Below, one piece after another: positions 15,849 through 63,309 of a DNA stretch of 64,000 bases. The translations under genes and the position numbers were made by a program. Numbering within the stretch: position 1 is the stretch's first letter; each line of letters begins with the position of its first letter. Source of the DNA: Ischnura elegans. Its lineage: Eukaryota > Arthropoda > Insecta > Odonata > Coenagrionidae. Under the pieces are notes generated by a model. That model was given only the letters and a program-made list of their open reading frames with translations. It searched no databases and was not told the origin of the DNA. The stretch is taken from assembly GCF_921293095.1 (NCBI RefSeq), contig NC_060248.1, forward strand, positions 14,898,744 through 14,962,743, read 5' to 3'.

Positions 15849-16016
15849 CAAGGCGATGGTCCCACCGAGGAAAACGACGATGAGGAGAAATTAAGCGTTT
15901 CTTAATGTTATTCGGTGGTCTTATCGAACCCTGAAATAGGAACTCCGTTCCCATACATTCCCTTCAGATTTCTTTTTTGAAACAGGTTTCTCCATAAAAC
16001 TTCCTCTTATTATACC

Positions 16017-17110
16017 CATAGTTTAACTGTGCTATTAATGTCCTCACTTATTTTTACTACAATGGCTTTGTAATTATGAAACTGCATGCTAACTAAACAT
16101 TACTTCATAAACATTTTATCATTGCTCTCTCTTACAAATCACTTGTGTTACGATTGGGCCCATGATTGAACTGTGATTTAAATGTCCTCACTTTTGTTGA
16201 CTTAAATGGCTTTGTTTTTATGAACCTGCTTTCTATCTGAACCTTATTTCATAAACATTTTTCATTTCTCATCCTAAGAAATCACTAGAGTGACGACTAG
16301 GCCCATGATTGAACTTGATATTAATGTCCTCTCTGTTGTTGACTTCAATGGATTTGTATTTGTGAACCTGCATGCCAACTGAACCTTACTTCATAAACAT
16401 TTTATCATTGCTCCTCCTAAGAAATCACTTGTTTGATGTTTATGCCCATGATTGAACTATGATTTTAATTCCCTCACAGTTGTTGACTTCAATGGCCTTG
16501 TATTTATGAACCTGCATGCCAACTTAACCTTACTTCATAAACATTTTATCATTGCTCCTCCTAAGAAATCTCTTGTTTGATGATTATGCCCATGATTGAA
16601 CTATGATTTTAATTTCCTCACAGTTGTTGACTTCAATGGCCTTGTATTTATGAACCTGCATGCCAACTGAACCATACTTCATAAACATTTTATCATTGCT
16701 CCTCCTAAGAAATCACTTGTTTGATGAATATGCCCATGATTGAACTATGATTTTAATTTCCTCACAGTTGTTGACTTCAATGGCCTTGTATTTATGAACC
16801 TGCATGCCAACTTAACCTTACTTCATAAACATTTTATCATTGCTCCTCCTAATAAATCACTTGTTTGATGATTATGCCCATGATTGAACTATGATTTTAA
16901 TTTCCTCACAGTTTTTGACTTCAATGGCCTTGTATTTATGAACCTGCATGCCAACTGAACCATACTTCATAAACATTTTATCATTGTTCCTCCTAACAAA
17001 TCACTTGTTTGATGATTTGGCCCATGATTGAACTGTGATTGTAATATCCTCACTGTTGTTGACTTCAATGGCTTTGTATTTATGAACCAGCTTGCTAACT
17101 GAACCTATTT
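16017..17110 (+). repeat. 144-bp tandem array, about 7.6 copies
   Basis: The anchor CATGATTGAAC (CATAGTTTAAC in the first copy) begins units at 16017, 16161, 16304, 16447, 16591, 16735, 16879 and 17023, spaced 143-144 bp. Each unit carries CAGTTGTTGACTTCAATGG, TATTTATGAACCTGCATGC, CTTCATAAACATTTTATCAT and CTCCTAAGAAATCACTTG in order. Central units are nearly identical and outer units more diverged, as expected for a satellite evolving by unequal exchange. Units are too long and spacer-free for a CRISPR array. Confidence 0.95.
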
Positions 17111-23911: not shown

Positions 23912-23916
23912 GGCCG
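23912..23916. repeat. 5-bp target-site duplication (GGCCG), left
   Basis: GGCCG immediately precedes the CACAGTG terminus and is repeated directly after the other terminus at 27,982-27,986. A 5-bp GC-rich duplication is characteristic of Transib and RAG transposition. Confidence 0.85.
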
Positions 23917-24899
23917 CACAGTGGGCTGAAATCGAAAAAAGCTGGACAAAAGTCCAAAATGACGTTTTTTGAGATAGAGACTTCAAACTTGGCGTAAATA
24001 CTTATAAATGATTACCAACTGTAGATGTATGTACCATTTTACATCAATACGATCCGTTACTGAGATACAGTGGCCCAAACATGACCAACTTTTTAAAAAC
24101 ACGCGCGGTCTCGTTTTTCTTCAGCAACCTTTGAATTTAAGCAGGTGGTGTTGCGTTGGCATGATTTTTATGGAATAAAAAACGCAATATTCCTTTGACT
24201 TGATGCTTTGCCTATACGTTCCATGAATTTTGAAGATTTTGGTTCTCATTTGACTGGTTTTACAACGCAAAATGGCGGACTCGTTTTTCACGTGAAATTT
24301 GACATAAAGTAGACATTATCTTTCGCTTACCAAATATATAACTCGGGAAACTCACATCACGGTGTAAAGTAGAGATTTCTCAAGAATACTAAGCAGAAAT
24401 CTTGGAAAAAAGTCTGCGACGAAGGAAATGAGAGCGATTTTTCGATCACGAGTCAAGGCTGAGCTACACGCCGCGGGACCCTGAGGCTCGGTAACCGAGG
24501 TCGATGTTTCAAGTTTTTTGAAACTTTATTCTAGAAAATCGTTATTTTAAGCACAGAGCCTAGTCATTAATGACCTAAAACACTATACTGATGACATTAT
24601 CAAGGATTATGGATCGACCGAATTGACCATTTAACGCGTTACTCGAGTGGAAATGCTTGGGATTGGATATTTGTCGGAACCATTCCACGAATAAGAAATA
24701 TGCTTCGGGTATTGAAGTAGGGTTAAAAGATTGACTTGGCATGCTAAAGAGAGAGAGAAACAAACTGTTTTCGCGAAATGCAACTACCGTTAACATTTTC
24801 CATTTCTAACCTCGCCGAGGTGGGTCGCGTGGAAAAGGGCGTTTTACGACGGCGTACAGCCTTTGAAGGTATTTAACAGATTCTTCCTCAAGGGTTTTT
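23917..24899 (+). repeat. Left inverted arm of the Transib-like element
   Basis: It pairs with 26,999-27,981 at a constant coordinate sum of 51,898, checked at the outer end, the nonamer and the inner end, so there is no net indel between arms. One substitution was noticed near the inner end (GTCGTAAAA versus GTCATAAAA). A 73-codon frame occurs identically in both arms but shows no known domain and is not called as a gene. Confidence 0.9.
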
Positions 24900-25649
24900 C
24901 TCTTTTCTAAACAAAAATACGTTTCAACTTGCAGTATTATTTTTAAATCGGTGAAGAAGTGCCGTGCTAGTTCTCCTAGTGTCGTGTCGTTCTGTAGTGT
25001 GATTGTCAAGTTCGTTTTGACGGCGCAGTGATTTTCCAGCTTGAATTTTGTGAGGTGAGTTTTTTTATTCTTTTCATTTCAAAGATGCATTTGTTTCAGT
25101 ACAGTTTCAATGTAATATTTTAATTACTTATGAATTTTGACTATTTTTGCCTCTCAGTAACCATGGCAATTATGATACGTGTTCTCTAACATATACTTAT
25201 AATTTTCAATTCCCCTCACAAGGTTTCGAGTGCTTTTTGACGTATAAATGTATTCTAACCAAGTTACTCGTTTTGAGTTTCATAATGAATTATTAGAAAC
25301 TAAGGGAATGACATCAGGATAAAAAATACACTTGTTGGATTTTTTGTAGCTGAGATTAAATGTTGAGAGCTACGAGGCTGCTCTAGATGGTCTCCGTGAA
25401 TTACTTAAGTTGAGATTCTGGTCTAATTACGAAAAAATGTGGAGACAATATTACTGGAGCAATAAAATATTTTAGTGCTACATATTCGGATCAACAGTTA
25501 TGGAGATGAATGATTTGAGGGCAATATAGAAGCGAGTTGTAGGTGTGACCAAATATTCTTTTTGATTATCAACCTCACATTGCTACATCCGATTTTTTGA
25601 ATGTGTGCTACACATATCGTACTGGACAGAATTAAAAAAATGTAGGTAA

Positions 25650-26480
25650 GAAAGAATACAACAAAGCTGGAATCCAGTTCAATGGTGAAAATGCCTTGTA
25701 ATTACGGCCAACATTCTTTACAGGCCCGAGGATATCTGAAAACACTCCTTATAGAGAGAAAATTTAGATTTCAGAATGCTTTTAGAGGAAGGATGGGGTT
25801 TATTTTTGATGTTCCAAGGCCTGTATCAGGGAACTTGAATGACGGTAACACCGCAAGACGTCTCTTCGATTCCCCAGACTTGGCCGCTGATTTGACGGGC
25901 AATTGAGTAAATGTAGACTGCAATAGCATATGTAACCCATGCACTGTAAAGCAAGTGTAACATTCACGCATGTTTGCAAATGAAATGGTTAAATACTTCA
26001 TCTAAATTATATGTTTTCACAGGAAAGTGTAATGTATCATCAGAAGAAAATTAATTTTTCATAATTACAGGCATCAATGTTGACCTAATCAAACATTTTT
26101 CCATCATTCTGAGGGCAATATCAAGTGGAATAACTCTAAATTATACAGCTTTCTCGGACTACTGCCAGAGAACTGCGGAGTTATTAACTAAGATGTATCC
26201 CTGGTATTGCATAACTACCACGGTACATAAGGGGCTTCAGCATAGAAGCGATTTTGCAAAAGAGTTGATTCTTGCTATGGGACAATTTTCTGAAGAAGCA
26301 TTACGAGCCCAGAATAAGGACACGCATAAATTCCGCCTGAGATTCTGCAGAAAGCAATCCAGATAGGGCACGAATGAAGACATTTTTAAACGACTGTTAT
26401 TAACGACTGATACATTTCTTTTCACCATCCTGGTATCAAGTCCGAGGAGACCGAAGGAAATACCAAAAGATTAAAGAGAT
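25650..26480 (+). pseudogene. Decayed RAG1-core/Transib-type transposase, C-terminal part
   Basis: The first piece (about 25,682-25,906) encodes FQNAFRGRMGFIFDVPRPVSG, then LNDGNTARRLFDSP and LAADLTGN, and stops at a TGA. After an apparent intron ending TTACAG at 26,070, the second piece (26,071 to about 26,476) encodes INVDLIKHF, TAELLTKMYPWY, TVHKGLQH, AMGQFSEEALRAQNK and KFRLRFCRKQSR. It then meets a TAG (26,364-26,366) and continues in frame with NEDIFKRLLLTTD. HK-x-L-x-H followed by SEE and NK parallels the RAG1 segment holding the last catalytic glutamate (SEGN...GNK). The enzyme would cut and join the element ends. The N-terminal catalytic aspartates were not found. Confidence 0.75.
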
Positions 26481-26998
26481 CTGCTAATTTTTTATGATAG
26501 TGTAGAAGAGGGATCAGACGCTAGTGACGGAATAAGTTCATCGGAGGATTGAAGGTAGGAACTCTATAAATGAAAACAAATACAATTCAGTAACTTTAAG
26601 GAAGAACATTTATGTGTGACATACATCTTTTCTATTTATATCGCAATTATTGATTCCGGATTGATTTTATTTGTAAGTTTAAGGTAATAAGTACATGGAT
26701 TTCCATTGATGGTATATTGTATTTTTATTTAAATATCCCTTTACGGATAGAGCCAAACATAATCAAACATTTTTCCAATGCATATGTATGATTTGATTCT
26801 GAATTTTCATTTATTGGACATGCTCCCACGTATATTGTCTTTAAGATGGACGACTGAAAGTGAAATTTTACTTGGTCAGGTTAACTCTTCATCTTATATT
26901 TTATAATAACATAAAAATAATGAGTTTAAATTTAACGGTTTTTTCATTTTTACTAAAACATTCCCCTATTGTATACATCTTGGTCAGATTAAAAAATT

Positions 26999-27981
26999 AA
27001 AAACCCTTGAGGAAGAATCTGTTAAATACCTTCAAAGGCTGTACGCCGTCATAAAACGCCCTTTTCCACGCGACCCACCTCGGCGAGGTTAGAAATGGAA
27101 AATGTTAACGGTAGTTGCATTTCGCGAAAACAGTTTGTTTCTCTCTCTCTTTAGCATGCCAAGTCAATCTTTTAACCCTACTTCAATACCCGAAGCATAT
27201 TTCTTATTCGTGGAATGGTTCCGACAAATATCCAATCCCAAGCATTTCCACTCGAGTAACGCGTTAAATGGTCAATTCGGTCGATCCATAATCCTTGATA
27301 ATGTCATCAGTATAGTGTTTTAGGTCATTAATGACTAGGCTCTGTGCTTAAAATAACGATTTTCTAGAATAAAGTTTCAAAAAACTTGAAACATCGACCT
27401 CGGTTACCGAGCCTCAGGGTCCCGCGGCGTGTAGCTCAGCCTTGACTCGTGATCGAAAAATCGCTCTCATTTCCTTCGTCGCAGACTTTTTTCCAAGATT
27501 TCTGCTTAGTATTCTTGAGAAATCTCTACTTTACACCGTGATGTGAGTTTCCCGAGTTATATATTTGGTAAGCGAAAGATAATGTCTACTTTATGTCAAA
27601 TTTCACGTGAAAAACGAGTCCGCCATTTTGCGTTGTAAAACCAGTCAAATGAGAACCAAAATCTTCAAAATTCATGGAACGTATAGGCAAAGCATCAAGT
27701 CAAAGGAATATTGCGTTTTTTATTCCATAAAAATCATGCCAACGCAACACCACCTGCTTAAATTCAAAGGTTGCTGAAGAAAAACGAGACCGCGCGTGTT
27801 TTTAAAAAGTTGGTCATGTTTGGGCCACTGTATCTCAGTAACGGATCGTATTGATGTAAAATGGTACATACATCTACAGTTGGTAATCATTTATAAGTAT
27901 TTACGCCAAGTTTGAAGTCTCTATCTCAAAAAACGTCATTTTGGACTTTTGTCCAGCTTTTTTCGATTTCAGCCCACTGTG
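26999..27981 (-). repeat. Right inverted arm of the Transib-like element
   Basis: Reverse-complement partner of 23,917-24,899, ending CACTGTG at 27,975-27,981, with the nonamer complement GACTTTTGT at 27,944-27,952. The arms together could form a hairpin of nearly 1 kb around the 2.1-kb centre. Confidence 0.9.
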
Positions 27982-27986
27982 GGCCG
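27982..27986. repeat. 5-bp target-site duplication (GGCCG), right
   Basis: A direct copy of 23,912-23,916, directly abutting the CACTGTG end. Confidence 0.85.
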
Positions 27987-30241: not shown

Positions 30242-30492
30242 GAGCGTACCCAGTATCAAAACTATGGGGGGTGGGGGCAAGCCATGGTTTCTCAAGCTGT
30301 AGGTAAGATTTAAGCATGGAAAAGGTGAATGAAATCAACATTTTATGGAAACTGTAACAGCTCTTTATTAGTTTTTAAAATTATTTGCTGGAAAAAATAT
30401 TATTTTCCTTAAAGACATTTGCGATTTTTGCTTCTGGGGGGCGGGGGGGGGGAGGCAGCTGCTCCCTCCTGCCCCTCGCTGGGTACGCCCAT
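30242..30492 (+). mobile_element. Short dispersed transposon copy, GGGCGTACCCAG-type ends
   Basis: The left end GAGCGTACCCAG faces the right end CGCTGGGTACGCCC as an imperfect inverted repeat. The interior (GTAAGATTTAAGCATGGAAA, AACTGTAACAGCTCTTTATT, AAAGACATTTGCGATTTT) is repeated almost verbatim at 33,361-33,575. A G-rich stretch near each end is typical of this kind of MITE. No clear target duplication was found, so the superfamily is left open. Confidence 0.7.
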
Positions 30493-33360: not shown

Positions 33361-33575
33361 GGCATACCAAGGATTAAAAATAGGGGGGGCAAGCGATGGT
33401 TGTTCAAGTTAAAGGTAAGATTTAAGCATGGAGAAGGTGAATGAAACCAACATTTTAAGGAAACTGTAACAGCTCTTTATTAGTTTTTAAAATCATTTGC
33501 TTGAAATATTACTGTTTTCCTTAAAGACATTTGCGATTTTGGCTGCCCCCTCCTCCCCCTCACTGGGTAAGCCCA
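33361..33575 (+). mobile_element. Second copy of the GGGCGTACCCAG-type short element
   Basis: The ends GGGCATACCAAGG and CACTGGGTAAGCCC form an imperfect inverted pair. The interior repeats that of 30,242-30,492 (TAAGATTTAAGCATGGA, AACTGTAACAGCTCTTTATT, TTCCTTAAAGACATTTGC). It adjoins the mariner relic, possibly having inserted into it. Confidence 0.7.
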
Positions 33576-39510: not shown

Positions 39511-42500
39511 CTACGAGGAGGCAAAACCAACCCAATCAGTTTTGGAATAGTTCAGTCCTGCTGCGTGACCATTGGTGAAATTCACATTGATTGCTTATGA
39601 GAAAAAATTACCCTAGATCGGGAATTGAGCCATGTACATTTGGCTATTCCAGCCACTGTGCAAACTGCTATGCAATCCAGGCTCTGTAATTTGAATAGCA
39701 ATTGACTTAAGGTAATCGTGCCAGACTGAAAGAAAACTGAAATATTCCACAATCACAGCAAGTGCATCTTTAGTGCTGGCATGAAGTTCACCACTGGAAG
39801 TGGCTTTTTGTAAGCCTATATCTCTTGGATTGCCATCTTGATGAACCACAGTAAAATTGTCATGGCAATCGAGATATCATAGCTGTTTGCACAGAGACCC
39901 TGGAAGCTAAAGATCAGTGGTTTCATTCACATTTCTGGGTCAGTGTGCTTGATACTAGTCAGAATTATTCTGTTCAGTTTAATGTGCAATGGGAATTTGT
40001 TGTGCTTTAAAATCTTCATTTCAATAACAATAGGAGACCTAGTTATTCATTGGAGCGAAAATGTTTAGCAACAAATTCCAATGGTATCGTTACCAAGTAG
40101 AATCAACCATTCTGTATGAAAACCAATTGGAATTATTCCAATCAGTATCTAGCACATCGAATCACAGGAATTTTTCACATAGCAATTAATTTGCACCCTT
40201 ATCAATCACCTCAGATTAAGACAGCCTCCAACCTCATCATTTTGTGATCGTGGCAGTATTTCAATTCATCAACTTTTCCATGCATGTCGTCACCTCCATA
40301 TTTTCCCTTCAACCCAAATTCCACCCACATCGAAAAGCAACTATTTCAACAATGCAACAAATTTATACAAAAGCAACATTTTCATGCAATGGGGAAGTCT
40401 GCTGAATTTGGAAATTGCAAAATATTAATGCAAGAGCAAAGTTAAATTATATGTAATTCATTGACTGTGAGAAAAATAAATGTACTAATAGAGATGCATA
40501 ATCCAAGAGCAGATTTAAAATGGTCCCTTCCCAGCCAAAACGCTCTCAAAATTTCATGAATAAGTACTCTTGAGTGTGTGTGGATGAGTCTTTACAGCAA
40601 TGTCATTTGAATCATCAAACCTGCAAAGTCCAGCGTGGTCCTTGGGCACGTCCTCATCGCAAATACCATCCAGGAGGCCTGTTGGTCCTTCCCTCTGCAC
40701 CTGCACCTGACACTTCATGTTGCCAGTGTCGTTTGTCGGATCAGGGTTCTTCCTGTTGAACTCTATATTGTTGTCCTGCAATGGGATTGTGATGCATATG
40801 TAAATCACTAGATTCATAATTTCAAATACAAAAAAAATCTCACGAAGTTGTTCTCACGCAATTACTTAGGCCCCTCAACAAATTCTTTACTGATAGTGGC
40901 TCTCTGAAAATTTCTTTCCAAATTGCCAGTGCTACCTCAAAAAACCCCTAAAATTTAATGTTTTTCATGGTAAAATTTAAAAGTACATAGTTTTGACATA
41001 ATTTGGTGAAAATATGTTTTAACCACACCAGCAATGAAATGTTTCAAAGGAAGTTACTTATTCATTATATTTGAAAATATGATGTGAATAAATAAACTTT
41101 TGAATAGTACTTCGTGATCATAAGGCATAATGATACTGAATATTTTTCAAGCACTTGCTGGAGATCTTTTGGATGTATGTATCCTCTTCCATTCAACACT
41201 TAACTGTGGGAATACATATTATTATAAAGAAAGACCTATAATTTTCTCAGTTTGAAAAAAAGGAGAGATGATTCTACATTGAATTATTTCTCTCTCCTGA
41301 TTTGAAAGTGTGTATATACACACTTTCAAATCAGGAGAGAGAATCAGTATATATACTACTTAAATTTTGCCTTGCAACTCCCCTTCGGAAAAAGAATTGG
41401 AAAAATCAGTATCTAGAATGCTGTAGCTACATTATTTGCCTATGCTGTTTTCATGCTAATGACATATGTAGGCAAGTACAACACCTTGCCTTATTACTCA
41501 TCCATGTATGATGGATCTTACTACTTCTAATGGCTAACATTCCTTTTTACTGTTGGAACTTGCCCTAATTTTTAACATTCATGTTTTAAGGGGGACATGA
41601 TCAGTATTTTATAATCTAGATTGGTATGTTGCCTTTGGGCATTTCATTTTTTACTTCTATTATTTAAAAAAATATCCCTCTCCCAAGCAAAACTTTCAAC
41701 ATCAAATTAATATACATATGTTATGTACTCATCTTTACTTTCAATTGATGACCTTTTACTTCAAAATGGATAGTTTGAGGCATGAATTTGTGAAATTTCT
41801 TCATGTTGAATCAAAAAACCTTGATTTCATATACATATGGATAGTTTAATTCTTGACCACTTTCATCACTGCGTGACATTGTCAGAACCAGAACCATGAT
41901 GATGTTGCACAGCAACATAACTGGTCAAGAATAAAATTATCTATGTGGAACCTACAAAATTTTTTGATTCAATACTTTTACTTTCAATTTGTGGTGTTTG
42001 TTTCATGTGTAATGAGTACTGTTGTTGCACACTGCTCTATGGTAATGAGCACTCTTTACCGTGAGCAACTTCTGGAGCTGCACGGGCTCCATGTCACGCA
42101 GGTAGAAGAGGCAATCTCGGGGGTGGTGTGCGTGCAGGCCCAGGCGAGCGCATGGGTGCCCCCCCCTTGCGATCACAACGGCCACCGACGTCCCCTCCTC
42201 CTCCTCCCCCCTCGCTCCATCCATGCACTGCGTCCCCATGGCAAACGTCTGGTCGCAGCCTGAGCAGAACTCGTGGCGACACTGTGGGCATGTCAAGTGC
42301 ATACAGCCCCCCCTCGCCAGCGAGAAGTTGCAGCGGCAGCGAGGGCACACCAGCATCGCCTCGGTGGACTCTGCAAGGTGGCGTGCCAGTCCGGCTGCCT
42401 GTGTGGCCGGGTCGTTCTCCTCGAGCCACTGGGCAAACAGGTCACAAGACAGTCCCTCGTGCTGCTGTGCCCACTGCGGGAAAAAATCATCGGAAACCAA

Positions 42501-45500
42501 GATGTTAAGCAGTTTCAGCGGAAAGTCATGTTTTCTGCATGGTGAGAAAAAATTTAGGCTCAGCACATAAATATTTAGATGTGGTTAATTGTGCCTCTAG
42601 TATGCATTTAAAATTATGTATGTGGAAATTGATCAGATCATCCATGTCTCACATAAGTTATGGCTGCAAAGTCTAAACAAGGGGACCATAGCCTTCTTTC
42701 GATACATTGTAATGCCTCATTAATTCCTCAAAAATTAAATTCATTACCTCTAAATTCAGGTAAGTCATACATCCAATACATACCACTACTGGACAGGAAT
42801 CAAGCCCTTCACTCTTAGTTAGCGTAGCCCTTGACAAGTTAACCTGCTCTTCTCCACATTGATGAGATTATCACCAGAGACAATTGAAAAACTGGTTTTG
42901 GAGATTTTTTTTGTCCAACTTATATTGGTGTTTGGATTTCCTGTCTTCATCCACTCTTTTTCCTTACATAGACATGATCAGGTGAAAGTCTGATGGAACC
43001 AAGCAGTTTGAGTGTTTTGAATTTGCCTATAAGGGAGGGCGATGGGAAATAGCCTCCAGGTCAACACCAGGGCCAGCAGATCTACTGTTGGAAAAATGGG
43101 CTGTTGGTACAACCTACTTAGTCTGCAATGAAAACCATCATTGGATCCTACCATATGAAATTGCAATGCCAAACTTTATGCTGATGGAGCTTAATAGACA
43201 GGGTTCCCACTCAACCGTGAAAACCTTAAAACCGTGAATAAACCGTGAATTTCGTCTACCGTGAAAAAACCTGGAAATAGCCGTGAATTTCATCCTAAAA
43301 CCTTAAAAATCTCTCAAACTTTTAGAAAAAGAACTACAATTGACAGATCAAAAGAAAAAAAAGATATTTAAATCACATTTCAAGGCCGAGCCATACAGAG
43401 ACACATTTATTTCCATACGTATATTCGAAGTGCAATTATTGGTGCCTTGTGCAATGACGACACATTGATCTTGAGCCTGTGATTGGAATACCGGCGAAGA
43501 AAGTGTTCATTAACCCTGGCAAAAAATCAGACACCTTTTTACTTCCCTACCTCACTGCTTTCTACTTTTTGCCACTCACAACCTTAAGCTTCACCTAAAT
43601 TTTGATATCGATAGGTGACGTCATGAGAAATAGCACTTTCATTGCTGCGTTTGAATTCACGGCGCCTGTCGCTGTTGATAAATTTTTAGTTAACGTGCGG
43701 ACGGTGATTGTTATGTCGTCAATATCTCTGCCTAAAATAGCTTATCAACAGACCATGAATTTGACGATATTTAGACCGTGAAAACCTGGAAAAAACCATG
43801 AATTTTATAATTTAGTGAGAGTGGGAACCCTGATAGAGGGAATAAGCTCCCAATTGATCAATTTTCAATACTGTATATGTCTGATTATAGTCCCCCCGTT
43901 TTTTCCAAAAATGCCTGTGGTAAAAGTAATGGGGGGGACCATATTCAAATGCATTTTTTTTAACTTTTCCCAAAACTGAAGCCTTTAGGGGGGGAAATAT
44001 TGAGAGAAATATGGTATTAGTCTCTTTATGAAATCAATTTTAATGCTATCAGAGGGTGCGAGAAAAAGCTGTACTGACGTGAACATGCTATAAACATTGA
44101 CATTTCTCTTGTGATAACTCTTAAATGGTTTATTGAAAGATTTACTCCTGTTCATATACATATTAATAACCTCTTAAAGCAAGCATACATACAGGCACCA
44201 GCCATGGTTCTTTGTCAACCAATAATATGAAAAGGTTATGAGAAATCAATGAATGCAATGTGAAGTAATACTTACAGGTCTGTGGCAAGAGGCGCATGTG
44301 ATTGATTTGCAGTCTGGGCATACTAATCTCTTCTGCCGTGGGTCAGAAATGAATCCTGATGAACACTGTTGGAAAACAAATAATTATGGCCCATAAATAG
44401 TTATTATTTGATTGTAGGCTCACCCTATTCATCTAAATTTTCCACAGGCGGATTCTCAGCATTTCTTGAAATCTGTATAACTTAATCTCAATCCTAAACC
44501 ATCTGTTTAACTGGAACAGGAATAATCTCCATGAGATTAATCCCCATACAACAAATTCAATTCTGGTTGAAAGTCATGGAATTGATTGTTCATAGTTTCA
44601 TAAATATCACCGCTCCATTTCATAAATATTAACAAACGAATTTATAGTACAATAAATGCAGTAGTTTTCCAAGAAATATTTTGTTAATCTCATTATTATA
44701 TAATGCAAGCATCACAATTGTAATTTGTTGTACCTGCACCTGATTATGTTAGAAAGCATTGTGAATGAAAAATTTTTTGAGGAAGACTTTTATAAGTGTT
44801 ATGATTGTGTACACTTAGGTGATATGAAGCCTGAAGCTGTTGTTTTAAAATGCACTTTCAAATCATGATAATCTTCTTACTGCCACTGCTATTATATATT
44901 TAAAACTGTAGTAGTATGCTTTTATTGTAGCCTCTCTATCAAGTGCTGAATTCACCACTTTATCATGACTTCAACATCTGCGAGTGGTTCACTCCCTCTC
45001 AAACCTGAATGTCTCAGAAATTTACTCGTCAACCTTTTTCATTACCTTTGTGCACCACTTAAAATTTGCTTCATTTGCCAGTGTCCTATCACGCAATTTC
45101 CTTTGGAATAGTTCATGGTCTTTAGGGTCCAATATAGCCTTGAGCAGAATGTCTAAATTGCTGTAGTAGTGCACGGCAGCTTCTTCAATGTCAGAGTTGT
45201 CCTTTGATCTCTTCGGAAAATTTGGCTCCTTACAGAATGGGCAAACTGCATCTTCAATGCTGCGATCACGAATTTGAACAGTGAAATACAACCGTGCACA
45301 GTCTTGGCAGCAACGATGGACACATGTTAACATTGACACCATCTGAAAGTGAAGAGATGATGTAAATCAGACTATGCATTATGTTTACAAATGTTCCTCA
45401 CATGGAGAATGCAATGATATAAAAAGTGGCCATAAATTGAGGACCATCCAGTGCGACATTGGCATTTATGCCAACCAATGTTATAGCCACAGTTTCTCGT

Positions 45501-51500: not shown

Positions 51501-54500
51501 GGGGCAAGTTATTTAGATGCTTCCTTTTAGATTTCTCTAATGAATTGTAATAGAAATGCTATGAAAAAAGAAAGCACATGTTTAAATTCATTTTAATGTG
51601 TAAGTTACAACTCAAATTTGTAGACCCTTGTACTTCAAGCTTTACTGAACCTTCCATTTAGACACCTCCTAGGTAAGAGATAGTAACTTTGGAAGTTAAT
51701 TATGTATCATGTTGTCTTAACATGTAGTCAATGCAAATAATCCATCTCGTCATTAAAAATGTATCTAGTGTAACCAACCAACCAAAATTTTTTGTGGCCA
51801 GTTACACATCAATTGTGTATATTTTTCCCGATCACTGCACAGATGTCACTGCATGATACCCAGTTAGTGTGCTAGATGCCATTTACCTTGCGCTGTCGGG
51901 ACTCCACGCAGTGCGTGACTGCAGCCCAGACGTCTCCCCCCTGCTTGCGCAGTGCCTCTCTTGCCTCTGTGGTGGAAACCGTTCCCACCGTGTTCTCCCG
52001 TCGCTCCAGGCCAAAGTTGGTGGCAAGGGTGGCCACCGTGTCAACCATCTGCAACCAGTTGGCCTTGAGCCAGGCGAGGGGTCCCTTTGCGTCCCGTTGT
52101 CCCCCACACTGCTTGAGTGCTACCTCCACCTCCTCGGCTGTGAATTGATGCTGCTCTGCTTCCTGCAATGGATTGCGCACACGCAAGAACGATGATTCTA
52201 ATGAGTGCCCCCTCTCATTGTGGTGATACACGATAATGCTCATCAGAGCAGGGAGACCACCACTTGCAGGAAAGTTTACCAACTACATGTAAAGGAGTAC
52301 CATGATATTTCTCGATTCTAATTCCTAGTAATTTTGGATTTTGATACATGCAATGAGAGCTCCTGAATGAAGGAATGCTCCTACGAGAGCTACGTGTGCT
52401 GGCAAAATTGTGTTGCATTTCCACTTTATCACGTTGGTGAAAATATTTCAGACTTTTCAGATACAGTACATATTACCTATACATATGTGTATATGCATTC
52501 ATAATTTTGAAAGAAAGGGTGAATTTACTTCTGAATAAAAAAAAAAAGCTGTGAAAACCCATTGTGTATATAGACAATGCGTTTGACGTGTTAGGGACAT
52601 TCCAGACATATACAATCCTGAGAAACATTGAGCAGTGTACACTTGTCAGTTAGTTCTGAGGGAGTCTCTGCATAATCAGATATCAATATCCAATTCTTGT
52701 GCCAAATTGAGAGTACGGGGGTTGTTTTTTTGTATCCAAAATAGCAATTCATAAAAATAATCAGGGAGATGGAAGAGAAAGATTGGTTACAATGAAAAGA
52801 CAGCCATTCATTCTAAAGTGTAAAATAAGAAAATTAAAAAGTTGTCACCTACTTTTTGTGAGTGCCACGACATCATTAGAAATCTGATTCATTTACTAAT
52901 TCAGTGAGAAAATTTCATTGAAGGAAAAAAATCACTCACATGAGGGTATGCAACAATGAACCCTGCAAGGTCCATGCACCAGTCCGAGGAATGGCTGAGA
53001 AGCAGCAACACCCTCAGCATAAGCACGTAATACCATAAACTTATTAGCAAAATGGTTAAGTTTGTCAATTTTTTGTTATGAATTGCTCAAGGACTATGCA
53101 ATAGATAGAAAAATATAAAAATACTGGTCTGTTTATTTTCCAACTCTATAGCTTTTGACCTTTGAATAAAAATTGGTGAACGAACTCATTGTTGGATAAT
53201 TTAAGCATTCCCCATGCACATTTTTCTCTTCCCCACCTCTATCCGTTATCAAAGATGAAACAGAAGCAATAAATTTGCTTAAAAACTCACTGAAAAATGG
53301 CTCTCTCTTTGGTTATTTAAAATCAGATGAAAGTAAAACTAGCCTCTTATAGGGATTGGACAACGTTAGTCTTTGTTTGAGTGAAACAACCCTGAAGAAT
53401 CCTGAGAATGAATACTTGGAGAGGATTGTCTGCGAAGGAATTTTTATTTAGCCAATTAAAAGTTGTCCTCTCATTCACTCAAAAAAGTAGTACATAATGC
53501 AAGCTTCCTTTAAGAACAGCCAAAGTATTTTTAGCTGCACCATAATGATGTGCATTGGGTAACAGCTGTTGAAGAACAAACGGCAAACAAAGAAGAACGG
53601 TAGCGGCTCAATCCTAGAATTTTCCCATCAGAAATACACTGTATCTCTTCAATATTCATCTTGCTTCGCTACACTCATTTGCTTGACTACAATAGAATAT
53701 GCAATGTTTTTTGCAGTATCACAAATCAGTGGTGATTTAAAAAAAAAATACAGGCTGTAAAAATTGGCTGAGGTTATCATGAAATGATGACTCATTCACC
53801 ATTATTTTAATGGTCCATTGGGATAGAGTTTGAAAAATGAATTGACCTGCAATTTTTCCTTTCTTGATCGGTAGCCTTGTTCTCAAGTGATCCATGAAAA
53901 AAATCAATGGCCTTCACCCTTTTGAAGATGAGTTGATGACATAGCAAGCTCATACCAAGCAGGTTACCACTTCCCAGCTAAGCCTTGAATATGAGCCTCT
54001 CATGGTTTGTTGTTGTTTAAACTTTTGTAAGCAATTGATGAAAACTTGTACTTGATGAGACTTGAACTACTGAATGAACCAGAATTGTAATGAAGTTACC
54101 GACGCACGAAAAGTGGGTGGCAACTTTCAAGTTTTCTTATTTCAAACTTGAGAGTGAATGATTGAATGGGGAAGATTTTTTTTTCATGACTAATATTTCT
54201 CTTCCAGCTATACATCAAATTATTTTCAAGAATTATGATTTAGAATTTCAGAGAACAACCCCAGTAGCTGATCTTAAATTACATGTCGTCTTCATTTCTA
54301 ATACACATTGTTACTTCAGTTGAATTCCTGTAGCTAACATTGCAGTGAAGCTCTTTCATAAGTGATGTCTTTTAAAGTTCGTGGTGCACACAGTGAGGTA
54401 GGTCACTTTCACCATTAACATTCATGTGGTAGCAAAAAGAGAGAATTTAGTTGTTGACCCTCACCCGCAACAACCGGACCAATTCGAGGCCATGCATTCT

Positions 54501-60500: not shown

Positions 60501-63309
60501 CAACCGACCTAGGTTTTGACAACTTATCGTCTTTTCTTGTCAACTCATAATTTTCACCTTGAATGTTTGTCAGTTTATTAATAAAATTATGTGGCCTGCA
60601 CAAACTTTTCTCTGTACTAATGTTACCTGTTACATGGTTCCACAAAATATCGCTATCGTCTCTTAAGTAATACATGAAGGTCCTCACCTGGTGCATAGGC
60701 ACACCGGGCCACTGGCCCATTGTGTTGAGGTCCGTGACAGATGTGCTACTTGCCATCCCTCCCCTTGGCCACCCATTCCATGGCTCAGTCAGCTCTGAGC
60801 GTCTCCTGCGGTTTAGGGTCGCAGTACCTCCTTCTCCAAATCCCCCCTGATGTGGCTGTAGCCATGGGGATGCCCTTCCATCACTGCCTGCAGCCGACTA
60901 AAACAGCAAGGCATTCATTAATTTCACCAATACCATTAATTCACTAATTCAGAAGGAAAAATTTTACACCTAATGTTTAAGAAATTATTTATTATTAGTT
61001 AGTATACTAAGAATTTTAATGAAACAATTTTAGAAATAAGTCATTATTATACATGTAAAAAACGTATTATTATTAGAGATGGGTCGAATAGCAGATTTCT
61101 CAAATGCAAAGCATATTAAACGTATGTTTTTTCTTCTATTTCCCTTGATGAATGTATAAATAAAAAGGTATACAGTGGAACCTCGATCTATCGTTTTTCA
61201 GAAGGGACAAAAAAAACCTATGAATGCGGGAATGTTTGACTAGGTTGCCTATGCAGCAGGAAACCCAGGATTTTGGCGAGTAATTGAGATTTCCTTTAAA
61301 GGATTCAAACCGGAATTTAGCTGATTAATGGAATATCTAACACGCGAATTTGATGTAGTTCGTCAACTTGCTTATAACGGCGCTGCATGCACTAAACTAC
61401 TAGATTTCTCTACATTTTTCCGAGCCAAATAACAACGACGTGCGTGCGACAGTGTATGGTGCGAAATTCAAAGTATTCGGGGTTGTACCATTAGCATAAC
61501 TATTCGAGTTCTCGAATATCGAATACTTTCTAGTATTCGAGGTATTTGAGTATTCGCAGATACTATTCACACATCTCTAATTATTATTGTATCATATAAT
61601 GACCTCTAAAACCTAACGAATGTAAGATTTAAAGTCCTGTATAATTATTAATGTGTTAGACAATCACAAACATCTCTGTGGTGGCACTTGCTCTAATGAA
61701 GATATTGTGGTTAGTTTGTGGGTTTATGTATACAGAAGTGGTGAAGCTATGATAAGAATGGGAAATATACACATCTATGAAGGTGACTTTGGGGGAGGAG
61801 ATAGATGAGGTGAAGGAAAGAGTGGAGGATTCATTAAGGGATGAGATGAAGGTCTTAGAAAGTCTAGACCATGTGGTCAAAGGAGGAAAATGTCATCAAT
61901 ATACCAAATTCAAATAATAGGTGCAACAGATTCAAGCTTCGATTGGTGGAAGTTAGACATGTTTAAATAAATAAAAGATCGAAGCACTTTTCCACAAAAT
62001 TTTTTTTGTCACGACTAGCGTCCTCCTTACGTGGGTTCCCCACATCCCGTTTTTCTATCTTTTCCCACTGTCTCCACTCTCTGTACGCCTGTTCCCACCC
62101 CCTTCTTCAAACATGTAAAATCCTCTCCAACCCCCTTTCTCAAAGGTATAAAGGTAATTTACAAATGTTTTGTAGTGTCTTGTACCAGATGATGGCTCAG
62201 TGAGCCAAAACGTGTTGTACGCAGTAAAACATTTTGTAGAAAAGTGCTATGATCTTTTATTTATTTAAATATCAAATAATAGGCTTTAATGCGTGTATAC
62301 TGGGAATTGGGAAAGGAATTTTTCCTTACATTGCACAAGATAAAGGTGATGAGCATATGAGGGACTAAACCTACAGCCCATGGCACAGCATTTTTCTGTA
62401 GGAATAGGTGGTCATTGAAAGAGAATGCATGGTGGATGAGAAATTGTGGCAGGTCTAGCAGGAAATCAGTACTTGGAATATAAGGGAATACAATCAATTG
62501 GTACGATCAAAAAATATAAGTACATATACATAGTGCCCATCAAAGCGACTAATCTTTGTCCTTCTATGTGGCTCGCCAACCCCAGTCCTTTTAGCGTTTA
62601 AGTCATCCAGAGCACAATGCTCATCCAGAGTGTGTGATTCAGCAAACAAATTTATTAATCTCACAAGTCCAAATGTTGATAAAATGAAGTTATAATAAGG
62701 ACAAGTATGTACTAGGTCCAAATGAAAATACACAACCAAGGTAACTTTTCACGGGAAAATTATTTATTGGTACGACACATTTCGACTCTGAGGCATCATT
62801 CTCAAGTACACTGATTATAATATCGACAATCCAATAAATACCCTAATTCTGGCAGGGGGGTTATAGAGGGGGGGGAAATTTGGGAAGGAGTATAACCCCT
62901 GTATAACCCTTCTCCCTCACTTGAGAATGATGCCTCAGCATCGAAACGCGTCGTACCAATAAATAATTTTCCAGTGAAAAGTTACCAAGGTTGTGTATTT
63001 TCATTTCAAGATGGATTTTCACAAAGTAAAAGCCGAATCAATTGAATTCATGTACTAGGTCATAATAAAATCCTTCTTTATACACTTTTTGGTTTAGATG
63101 GTGGTTTTGTCGCACCTGTGCCTGCCAGTTGAGGTTGGCCTGCTCTGAGCGCTGGTGCTCCCAAAGGTTGCCCATGGAGGCCCCTCGGAAGCCATTCAGT
63201 GACTTGACTGGGGGGGGCTGGGGTGAGAGGGAAGGGTGTTGTGGCCAGTGTCCTTGACTGCTCTCAGGATGGTGCCGGAATGAGGAATGAATGCTTCCCT
63301 CCCTCATTG
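39342..63309 (-). CDS. LUBEL: LUBEL/HOIP (RNF31)-type linear ubiquitin E3 ligase, 15 exons, both ends incomplete
   Basis: Fifteen exons join in frame into 1,423 codons. The product is an RBR ligase of the HOIP family: RING1 binds the E2-ubiquitin, the RING2 cysteine takes ubiquitin as a thioester, and the LDD directs its transfer to Met1 of another ubiquitin, making linear chains for NF-kB/IMD-type signalling in the cytosol. Domains by residue of the joined frame: NZF about 236-256; SP/VGDD repeats about 345-530; UBA-type helices about 719-860 and 982-1036; RING1 1037-1085; IBR about 1145-1187; RING2 1220 onward with RGGCMH (catalytic Cys about 1234); LDD from [12 protein letters not shown] to the end. 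All splice sites are GT-AG except one GC-AG. The N-terminal PUB region of vertebrate HOIP was not seen, and the last few C-terminal residues are missing. Identity is very secure from RING2 and LDD. Confidence 0.93.
39511..40620 (-). other. LUBEL intron 14
   Basis: 1,110 bp with phase-2 junctions (AG/GTTTGA to CGTAG/G). No recognisable element. Confidence 0.7.
40621..40775 (-). CDS. LUBEL: LUBEL exon 14: middle of the LDD
   Basis: Encodes [18 protein letters not shown], then [20 protein letters not shown] and DHAGLC, ending two bases into an arginine codon. It corresponds to the HOIP segment DNNVMFN ... CRVMEQKEVPAGLRDE ... AGLC. The acceptor is CATTGCAG and the donor AG/GTTTGA, which is weak but gives the exact frame and protein join. 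Confidence 0.92.
41288..41343. repeat. Perfect 56-bp palindrome inside LUBEL intron 13
   Basis: Each half is the exact reverse complement of the other, with no spacer; the outer sequence is TTCTCTCTCCTGATTTGAAA and the centre GTATATAC. It lies in the intron between exons 13 and 14 (40,776-42,059), which has no other recognised content. Confidence 0.95.
42060..42473 (-). CDS. LUBEL: LUBEL exon 13: end of IBR, catalytic RING2, start of LDD
   Basis: 138 codons. [10 protein letters not shown] closes the IBR. RING2 follows: [27 protein letters not shown]. The cysteine in RGGCMH is the thioester residue, and the following His matches the HOIP catalytic His. [14 protein letters not shown] and LQKLLT begin the LDD. 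A stretch of about 20 residues ([20 protein letters not shown]) sits between the FAMGTQC cysteine and PCARLGL, where relatives known to me have only a few residues. It is in frame and GC-rich. Acceptor CCCGCAG, donor ACG/GTAAAG. Confidence 0.95.
43199..43832 (+). mobile_element. hAT-type non-autonomous element in LUBEL intron 12
   Basis: The ends CAGGGTTCCCACTC and GAGTGGGAACCCTG are inverted repeats. ATAGA flanks both sides (43,194-43,198 and 43,833-43,837). CAGGG ends suggest hAT, though a 5-bp duplication is shorter than the usual 8. The subterminal region has several repeats of ACCGTGAA. There is no transposase frame. Confidence 0.8.
43871..44013 (+). mobile_element. TA-flanked MITE with G-tract ends, copy 2
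   Basis: TA flanks lie at 43,869-43,870 and 44,014-44,015. The left half (CTGTATATGTCTGATTATAG, TCCCCCCGTTTTTTCCAAAA) matches copy 1 at 38,602. The right end is GAGAGAAATATGG. It lies 36 bp from the hAT element. Confidence 0.75.
44276..44365 (-). CDS. LUBEL: LUBEL exon 12: core of the IBR domain
   Basis: Thirty codons, [20 protein letters not shown], then [10 protein letters not shown]. Together with WCTK at the end of exon 11 and [10 protein letters not shown] of exon 13 it supplies the zinc-binding cysteines of the in-between-RING domain. Acceptor TTCCAACAG, donor CCT/GTAAGT. Confidence 0.94.
44366..45045 (-). other. LUBEL intron 11
   Basis: 680 bp, phase 0, no recognised element. Confidence 0.7.
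45046..45342 (-). CDS. LUBEL: LUBEL exon 11: RING1 main part and linker
   Basis: 99 codons starting [15 protein letters not shown], then the CPFC pair. With CLLC at the end of exon 10 this completes RING1, which recruits the E2. A mostly helical linker follows ([20 protein letters not shown]) and the exon ends FKWCTK, the first IBR cysteine. Acceptor CTTTCAG, donor AAG/GTAATG. Confidence 0.95.
45343..46182 (-). other. LUBEL intron 10
   Basis: 840 bp, phase 0. It contains a run of 15 G at 45,688-45,702; nothing else recognised. Confidence 0.7.
46183..46383 (-). CDS. LUBEL: LUBEL exon 10: UBA-like helices and first RING1 cysteines
   Basis: 67 codons: [20 protein letters not shown], then [20 protein letters not shown] and [14 protein letters not shown]. 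The helical part resembles the HOIP segment just before RING1. CLLC (residues 1037 and 1040 of the joined frame) is the first zinc pair of RING1. Acceptor AATTTCAG-type, donor AAG/GTAAAT. Confidence 0.93.
46384..48385 (-). other. LUBEL intron 9 (GC-AG)
   Basis: 2,002 bp with donor GAG/GCAAGT and acceptor TTTCAG. A B-box-like GGTTCAAATCTC at about 48,140 hints at a SINE piece; nothing else recognised. Confidence 0.65.
48386..48648 (-). CDS. LUBEL: LUBEL exon 9: acidic low-complexity linker, GC donor
   Basis: Begins by completing a glycine codon with exon 8, then [20 protein letters not shown], long Glu/Gly runs and [12 protein letters not shown]. The exon is open throughout and its frame agrees with both neighbours. 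The donor is GAG/GCAAGT, the strongest form of a GC-type 5' splice site; no GT donor nearby preserves the frame as well. It is likely a disordered linker between UBA-type segments. Confidence 0.82.
48976..49250 (+). mobile_element. hAT-like MITE in LUBEL intron 8
   Basis: The left end CAGTGGCGTAGCCAGG faces the right end CGTGGCTACGCCAGAGCA. TCACAT flanks both sides (48,970-48,975 and 49,251-49,256). At 275 bp with G/C-runs near the right end and no ORF, it is the kind of short element very common in arthropod genomes; hAT assignment is probable rather than certain. Confidence 0.7.
49257..50427 (-). other. Remainder of LUBEL intron 8
   Basis: No recognised gene or repeat. Confidence 0.6.
50428..50677 (-). 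CDS. LUBEL: LUBEL exon 8: UBA-like segment and Ser/Gly linker
   Basis: Starts [20 protein letters not shown], then [18 protein letters not shown], a three-helix pattern of a UBA-type domain. A polar linker with [20 protein letters not shown] follows. Acceptor ATCTTGCAG, donor ACAG/GTGAGA in phase 1, matching exon 9. Confidence 0.9.
50678..51886 (-). other. LUBEL intron 7
   Basis: 1,209 bp, phase 0, no recognised element. Confidence 0.65.
51887..52162 (-). CDS. LUBEL: LUBEL exon 7: UBA-type helical region
   Basis: 92 codons: [40 protein letters not shown], then [20 protein letters not shown]. The W-L-x-x-N-W-x-x-M and GGDVWAAV patterns are those of the HOIP helical UBA region before the RINGs. 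Continuity with LVRLLR of exon 6 gives LLREAEQ. Acceptor CATTGCAG, donor AAG/GTAAAT. Confidence 0.9.
52163..54464 (-). other. LUBEL intron 6
   Basis: 2,302 bp, phase 0. Only AT-rich sequence and short unsupported frames. Confidence 0.65.
54465..54647 (-). CDS. LUBEL: LUBEL exon 6: proline/serine linker into a helix
   Basis: 61 codons: [40 protein letters not shown], ending [11 protein letters not shown], which leads directly into the UBA-region helix of exon 7. [10 protein letters not shown] could be an SH3-type ligand. Acceptor CATTGCAG, donor CGG/GTGAGG, phase 0 both sides. Confidence 0.88.
54648..55454 (-). other. LUBEL intron 5
   Basis: 807 bp, phase 0, no recognised element. Confidence 0.65.
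55455..55712 (-). CDS. LUBEL: LUBEL exon 5: low-complexity region
   Basis: 86 codons with no domain: [33 protein letters not shown], then a basic stretch [19 protein letters not shown] with possible basophilic-kinase sites. Acceptor TTCATTCAG, donor GGG/GTAAGG. Frame is continuous with exons 4 and 6. Confidence 0.85.
55713..56322 (-). other. LUBEL intron 4
   Basis: 610 bp, phase 0, no recognised element. Confidence 0.65.
56323..57200 (-). CDS. LUBEL: LUBEL exon 4: Lys/Glu coil and Ser-Pro/VGDD repeat array
   Basis: 878 bp, completing a Glu codon split with exon 3. It opens with a Lys/Glu-rich possible coil ([14 protein letters not shown]). About eight repeats of roughly 23 residues follow, of the form RR-x-x-x-SP-V-x-x-x-ST-x-V-GDD-x-P (57,003 to about 56,455). 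It ends with a Ser-rich tail with [14 protein letters not shown]. The DNA repeats every 60-70 bp or so. Several Ser-Pro sites suggest phospho-regulation; that is inference. Acceptor CATTATAG, donor CAG/GTAAAG. Confidence 0.9.
57703..58019 (+). mobile_element. piggyBac-like MITE in LUBEL intron 3, TTAA duplication
   Basis: TTAA flanks at 57,699-57,702 and 58,020-58,023. The ends CCCTTTTACTGCTACTGGGC and GGAGCAAAAGGG are related to those of 35,380-36,089 (CCCTTTCACTGCTGT). A perfect 18-bp palindrome, GGGCCGATATATCGGCCC, lies at 57,719-57,736. It is 317 bp with no ORF, and the intron (57,201-58,184) is otherwise unremarkable. Confidence 0.85.
58185..58617 (-). CDS. LUBEL: LUBEL exon 3: Gly-rich region and NZF zinc finger
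   Basis: 433 bp. The first half is His/Gly/Trp/Pro-rich ([26 protein letters not shown]). The NZF finger follows: [20 protein letters not shown], with the W, N and four Cys of the ubiquitin-binding Npl4-type finger. The tail is Lys/Arg/Gln-rich. Acceptor GGTGCAG, donor AAGG/GTCAGT in phase 1, fitting exon 4. The coding strand is GC-rich, so several antisense frames are open by composition only. Confidence 0.92.
58618..59055 (-). other. Part of LUBEL intron 2
   Basis: Nothing recognised between exon 3 and the LINE relic. Confidence 0.55.
59056..59346 (-). pseudogene. LINE ORF2 C-terminal fragment in LUBEL intron 2
   Basis: 96 codons open: [49 protein letters not shown] and MKRLADRRA. This is the conserved tail downstream of the reverse transcriptase in LINEs of the type seen at 8,877-9,960 (consensus W-x-x-x-VSNEEVLRR, GHILRHD, GKRGRGRPR). 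Being severely 5'-truncated it cannot move. It lies on the same strand as the host gene. Confidence 0.85.
59885..60005 (-). pseudogene. Second LINE tail fragment, related to 59,056-59,346
   Basis: The minus strand reads MMKIKWI, then stops and ERSLLKAL and a GHNMRH-like piece. It matches the first 40 or so residues of the neighbouring fragment, with stops. It may be an internal duplication or a separate truncated insertion. Confidence 0.6.
60688..60897 (-). CDS. LUBEL: LUBEL exon 2: low-complexity N-terminal region
   Basis: 70 codons: [40 protein letters not shown], ending [11 protein letters not shown]. No domain is recognised. The acceptor CTGTTTTAG gives phase 0 with exon 1; a second possible acceptor ten bases downstream (GCTGCAG) would break the frame. 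Donor CAG/GTGAGG. Confidence 0.78.
61074..61579 (+). mobile_element. hAT-type MITE in LUBEL intron 1, TSD ATTATTAT
   Basis: The ends TAGAGATGGGTCGAATAG and CTATTCACACATCTCTA are an imperfect inverted repeat. Exact 8-bp ATTATTAT copies flank it (61,066-61,073 and 61,580-61,587), although the target is itself repetitive. The right part has several TATTCGA motifs. The terminus resembles the right end of 34,368-36,270. Confidence 0.8.
61656..62497 (-). pseudogene. Penelope-like reverse transcriptase relic, split by a later insertion
   Basis: Read on the minus strand, 62,497-62,284 gives [20 protein letters not shown], then in a shifted frame [18 protein letters not shown] and [12 protein letters not shown]. 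After the inserted element it continues at 61,909 with WYIDDIFLL (61,892-61,906) and, shifted again, [20 protein letters not shown]. These are ordered Penelope RT motifs: GTAMG-x-x-x-APSYA, YIDDIFL and FLDV-x-I ... SVYRKPT. Frameshifts show decay. The C-terminal GIY-YIG endonuclease is absent; a GIY-YIG fragment of this class is at 12,925-13,083. Confidence 0.85.
61922..62271. mobile_element. 350-bp insertion with 12-bp TSD inside the Penelope RT relic
   Basis: TCAAATAATAGG occurs directly on both sides (61,910-61,921 and 62,272-62,283), and the Penelope protein resumes across it. Inverted arms of about 45 bp (61,961 on: GTTTAAATAAATAAAAGATC; ending at 62,270) enclose it. At 62,181-62,220 it holds a GGCTC-AGT-GAGCC stem followed by AAAAC and GTGTTGTAC. 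A 12-bp duplication fits retrotransposition, as seen with Penelope-like elements, better than known DNA transposons. Confidence 0.8.
62721..63006. repeat. Inverted repeat, arms about 85-90 bp, next to LUBEL exon 1
   Basis: The left arm starts AATGAAAATACACAACCAAG and the right arm ends CTTGGTTGTGTATTTTCATT in complement. Both contain GATGC-CTCA-GCATC (or a close variant) followed by GAAAC and a GTCGTACC stretch. About 115 bp of G-rich sequence lies between the arms. It is about 110 bp from the exon 1 donor, so it lies in the first part of intron 1. Confidence 0.8.
63116..63309 (-). CDS. LUBEL: LUBEL exon 1 of this window: Pro/His/Gln-rich, 5' end uncertain
   Basis: 64 codons in frame with exon 2: [58 protein letters not shown]. 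Donor ACAG/GTGCGA. The upstream boundary is either the acceptor TCACAAG at 63,310-63,311 or a genuine start, since MSQAM precedes in frame; a pyrimidine-rich stretch upstream makes an acceptor more likely. Further 5' exons would lie beyond the window. Confidence 0.68.

Follow-up and report, generated by a model that had tools for sequence, protein, structure and literature searches.

The 4,065-bp element at positions 23917-27981 of the window (the whole 64-kb stretch of DNA that was analysed) is, with high confidence, a non-autonomous cut-and-paste DNA transposon that belongs to the Transib superfamily and has long terminal inverted repeats (TIRs). It combines a homologous transposase, a 5-bp target-site duplication and inverted, heptamer-like ends that start with CAC. 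The heptamer pair, the duplication and the protein are all beyond chance. The original prediction had assigned the element to this superfamily, and the assignment is supported by the transposase match, the CACAGTG ends and the 5-bp duplication. Most likely, the copy was moved in trans by a transposase made elsewhere.

Boundaries and terminal inverted repeats

Comparison of the flanks demonstrated that the element is bordered on both sides by exact 5-bp GGCCG duplications, located at 23912-23916 on the left and at 27982-27986 on the right. At the local base composition, a 5-bp match between the flanks has a chance probability of approximately 0.0013. A GC-rich duplication of this length had been predicted, and it proved identical on both flanks of the one copy from which the element is known.

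Each TIR is 983 bp long, with the left arm at 23917-24899 (+ strand) and the right arm at 26999-27981 (- strand). Direct arm-to-arm comparison revealed a single mismatch, at position 931; the repeat listing gives the arms in rounded form as 990 nt and 100%. One mismatch per 983 bp suggests that the insertion is young, unless the arms were homogenised by gene conversion.

The left end (23917-23954, + strand) consists of the heptamer CACAGTG (23917-23923), a 22-nt spacer and the nonamer-like block ACAAAAGTC (23946-23954), and the right end (27944-27981, - strand) has the same letters. Termini of precisely this form had been predicted and were recovered, exact and inverted, at both ends of the element. 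As for the terminal repeat that had been claimed, its ends are real and its extent goes beyond the tip to the full length of the arms. When the 38-nt end was searched against the 64-kb window with up to three mismatches allowed, two matches were obtained, both exact, compared to a mean of 0.00 in 100 shuffles. No further fragments of the element were found elsewhere in the window by blastn at E 0.01.

Other repeats were observed in the window. Tandem arrays occupy 16009-17106 (144-bp unit, 7.6 copies, 89% matches) and 2062-2934 (310-bp unit, 2.8 copies, 90% matches). A direct repeat of 160 bp with 90% identity (30273-30432 and 33385-33544) is perhaps another mobile element, and an inverted repeat of 88 bp with 92% identity and a short loop (62720-62807 and 62919-63006) is perhaps a small fold-back or MITE. 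On the - strand, an IBR_1 domain (E = 2.2e-17) was identified in the frame 42003-42584 and a UBA_HOIP domain (E = 2.5e-32) in the frame 51872-52282; both frames probably belong to a gene for a linear-ubiquitin ligase of the HOIP/LUBEL type, which indicates that the host is probably an animal, perhaps an arthropod. A search for tRNA genes found none.

Identity and decay of the transposase gene

The HzTransib transposase (6pqn) was the best PDB match (E = 1.2e-21) for the open frame of 103 aa at 26055-26366 (+ strand). Three read-through frames, with X at the stops, were started at 24901 and ended at 26290, 26471 and 26337. One of them matched 6pqn over chain positions 222-280 and 337-457 (E = 6.5e-34), a second matched chain positions 278-342 (E = 7.3e-07), and the third + strand frame gave no transposase match. 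In total, the transposase homology spans 25470-26420 on the + strand, and the remnant shares 43% identity with HzTransib over 121 columns. The rows found beside HzTransib were chance matches: a phage tail fibre (0.014) and a CSC1-like protein (1.3) for the 103-aa frame, a deacylase (1.1) for the frame with E = 6.5e-34, and a dehydrogenase (2.2) for the third frame. Pfam analysis of three ORFs and of the transposase remnant returned no families. The - strand of the element was compared with Pfam only. The original prediction of a decayed, RAG1-related transposase of the Transib type was borne out by the match to 6pqn at E = 6.5e-34 together with the internal stops.

The relationship to RAG1 itself was more distant. 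The window remnant alone did not reach RAG1 at E values up to 10. With a two-row profile of the remnant and the HzTransib segment, 16 of 24 rows were RAG1 or RAG1L (best, 6.1e-05), and the remaining rows were HzTransib and seven unrelated proteins at E values of at least 0.045. This link to RAG1 is not independent evidence, because HzTransib itself supplies one row of the profile. The profile matches to RAG1 and to a RAG1L chain would fit a decayed RAG-like transposon of the RAGL/ProtoRAG type carrying both RAG1L and RAG2L genes, as would the CAC ends and 5-bp duplications that are common to both groups according to the excerpt of PMC7204232. Such an identity is very improbable, and it was rejected: on its own the remnant leads to HzTransib and not to RAG1, and the value of 6.1e-05 was reached only with HzTransib in the profile. 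Positions 8-10 of the ends are GGC, compared to AAA in the protostome RAGL consensus given in the same excerpt (PMC7204232). In addition, the search for a RAG2-like (kelch) gene in all six frames of the element returned no Pfam family of any kind at E values up to 0.1; this search was run without a positive control, and a badly decayed RAG2L could escape it.

A further reading is that the element belongs to another superfamily of the CMCT group with 5'-CA..TG-3' ends, such as EnSpm/CACTA, Mirage or Chapaev. The group shares mostly CA..TG termini, duplications of 2 to 5 bp, and the C(2)C and H(3-4)H motifs, as described in the available part of PMC12730594. Against this, the remnant matches Transib in sequence and the element is flanked by a 5-bp duplication, which makes the reading extremely improbable.

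Within the Transib transposase remnant, the homology falls into three blocks on the + strand. The first (25470-25646) aligns with HzTransib chain positions 222-280; the second (25709-25906), in another frame, aligns with positions 278-342 and includes the NDGNTARR block; and the third (26061-26420), which represents the C-terminal part, aligns with positions 337-457 and includes HKGLQH. Premature stops interrupt the first block at 25527 and 25563 and the third block at 26364. Two further stops are located at 25904, at the edge of the second block, and at 25473, where the TAG directly before 25476 is splice-like and perhaps a splice acceptor. Two putative introns were read by eye from the letters. 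Putative intron A (25646-25723, + strand; GTAAGA...TTTACAG) has splice-like ends at a break in the homology, and its frame does not close. Putative intron B (25899-26070, + strand; GC...ACAG) has uncertain boundaries, because (L/I)TG is encoded on both sides. Since the homology breaks coincide with splice-like ends, the ancestral transposase gene may have had introns.

The catalytic residues were located by alignment. The Glu of HzTransib 'SEARNK' (chain position 419) pairs with the Glu of RAG1 'NESGNK' (4wwx_B position 572). We take this position to be residue 962, assuming that the 618 residues of 4wwx_B end at residue 1008, and E962 is presumably the catalytic Glu of RAG1. The HzTransib triad is given as D126, D225 and E436 in the excerpt of PMC6941560, and these residues were placed at chain positions 109, 208 and 419 from the RAG1 alignment and an inferred offset of 17. 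At the column of the catalytic Glu, which would be E436 by this offset, the element has the Arg codon CGA (26304-26306, + strand). The HK-x-L-x-H...SEE...NK pattern that had been predicted is indeed present in the open frame 26055-26366 (+ strand), but its 'SEE' does not hold as the catalytic motif: the residue aligned with the Glu sits three residues later and is Arg here. By alignment, 'SEE' is best read as a conserved neighbour of the active-site residue.

The C(2)C and H(3-4)H motifs have been described for Transib and its relatives (PMC12730594, in part), and HKGLQH and CYIF appear to correspond to them. HKGLQH fits H(4)H, and CYIF, which lies in the first block, replaces CYLC of HzTransib, with the second Cys gone. 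For the N-terminal half, which would carry the first two catalytic Asp, no transposase match was obtained in the three + strand frames of 23917-25478, nor in any + strand frame upstream of 25470; these searches returned two chance amylase rows only, with E values of 1.3 and 1.5. Divergence may also have hidden this half from phmmer, which was run with a single reference.

In contrast to an autonomous element, the copy has no intact DDE triad, given its stops, Arg in place of Glu and both Asp undetected, and it has lost the second Cys of C(2)C. As judged from its sequence, the transposase gene is dead. The copy was filed as non-autonomous on the basis of the stops, the Arg at the Glu column and the undetected Asp region.

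Resemblance of the ends to the V(D)J recombination signal

The heptamer of the ends is an exact CACAGTG, and the nonamer-like ACAAAAGTC agrees with seven of the nine letters of ACAAAAACC, the consensus taken from PMC8289069, at a spacer of 22 nt. To assess the significance of the nonamer, the 76 nt that follow the heptamer were shuffled 20,000 times. A nonamer with 7/9 letters was obtained in 0.9% of the shuffles at exactly 22 nt (P of approximately 0.009), in 5.0% at a spacing of 12 ± 1 or 23 ± 1 (P = 0.05), and in 28.7% when every spacing between 0 and 39 was allowed. Nine CACAGTG sites are present in the window, and one of the seven outside the element ends also has a 7/9 nonamer, at a spacing of 11. 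Furthermore, the two ends count as one observation, because they are parts of one 983-bp repeat. The resemblance of the nonamer is weak and on its own unconvincing, and the nonamer was rejected as strong evidence given the shuffling P of up to 0.05 and the equal score at one of the seven other sites.

It has been reported that Transib ends carry a heptamer and nonamer-like blocks with symmetric spacers of 20-22 bp, and in some cases asymmetric 12/23 spacers, a description that goes back to Kapitonov and Jurka 2005 (PMC8355894, excerpt). In some cases the heptamers and nonamers of Transib are the very ones that RAG recognises, and the spacers differ in length (PMC6941560, excerpt). Most Transib families, such as Hztransib, show 'little or no' similarity to the nonamer in the passage available from PMC8289069, which argues against giving weight to the nonamer here.

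A genuine symmetric 23-RSS-like pair, in which the nonamer is bound and used, would be compatible with a Transib copy moved in trans. The exact heptamer followed at 22 nt by a 7/9 nonamer at both ends, and the published Transib ends with 20-22-bp spacers (PMC8355894, in part), point in this direction. We consider it unlikely, in view of the single repeat to which both ends belong, the P of 0.05 over all allowed spacings, the one of seven other CACAGTG sites that does equally well, and the families with little or no nonamer similarity (PMC8289069, in part). A more specific proposal is quite doubtful, namely that recently mobilised, symmetric 23-RSS-like ends have a functional nonamer at 22 nt and would be used as a bipartite signal by an active host Transib transposase, perhaps also by RAG1/RAG2 in vitro.

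According to the original prediction, an RSS-like end was unusual for Transib and had a new bearing on the origin of RSSs. Neither claim is supported: ends of this kind have already been described for Transib in the available parts of PMC8355894 and PMC6941560. The combination of ends, duplication and TIRs lies within the range reported for Transib, and a new bearing on RSS origins is thus unsupported. RSS-like Transib ends are already known, and the element adds one more such copy. With the pattern traced by reviews to a 2005 paper, the element is ordinary and matters little in this respect.

Probable mobilisation in trans and comparison with known systems

Arms of 983 bp that are almost identical and enclose a dead gene suggest that the host has an active Transib transposase. 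This enzyme, with its gene at another place in the genome, would have bound both identical ends, made its cut on the 5' side of CACAGTG and integrated the element at a GC-rich 5-bp site, which would then have been duplicated as GGCCG. By analogy with HzTransib, for which a flank hairpin and a blunt signal end are described in the excerpt of PMC6941560, cleavage may have proceeded via flank hairpins. The movement would have taken place in trans, after the gene of the element had died. It would also have been recent, with arm homogenisation by gene conversion as the alternative. Taken together, the dead gene, the intact ends, the near-identical arms and the undamaged duplication make movement in trans the most likely course.

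Relatives were also sought in viral contigs and prokaryote genome contigs, which are poor sources for relatives of an animal transposon. In the viral contigs, none of 8 pattern stretches for the 103-aa frame and none of 133 for the two-row profile was confirmed, and the 18-nt end gave no matches. In the prokaryote genome contigs, none of 37 stretches for the 103-aa frame and none of 75 for the two-row profile was confirmed. Neither a second copy nor an empty site nor an autonomous partner emerged from these two collections, whose silence carries little weight.

Compared to the V(D)J 23-RSS, the element has the identical heptamer CACAGTG and a 7/9 nonamer, but its spacer is 22 instead of 23, and its ends are alike within a 983-bp repeat, with no 12/23 pair. 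GC-biased 5-bp duplications have been described for both Transib and RAG (PMC8289069, excerpt). ProtoRAG and RAGL have the CAC start, the 5-bp duplications and a distant transposase kinship in common with the element, whereas the element differs from them in its long, nearly perfect and symmetric TIRs and in having no detected RAG2-like domain. The TIRs of two Anopheles gambiae Transib families are imperfect according to the excerpt of PMC3442997, unlike the near-identical arms of the element.

Hztransib of Helicoverpa zea (6pqn and five further PDB entries) is like the element in its transposase, with the 43% identity over 121 columns given above. It measures 3,518 bp and has long TIRs and 5-bp GCTCG duplications (PMC1852546, in part); long TIRs, a GC-rich 5-bp duplication and a similar size (3,518 compared to 4,065 bp) are thus common to both. 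The Hztransib transposase is functional (PMC6941560, excerpt), whereas that of the element has stops, Arg at the Glu column and an N-terminal half that escaped detection. The Transib families with RSS-like ends, to which the element is likened by description, have symmetric spacers of 20-22 bp in the excerpt of PMC8355894, and the spacer of 22 in the element agrees with them.
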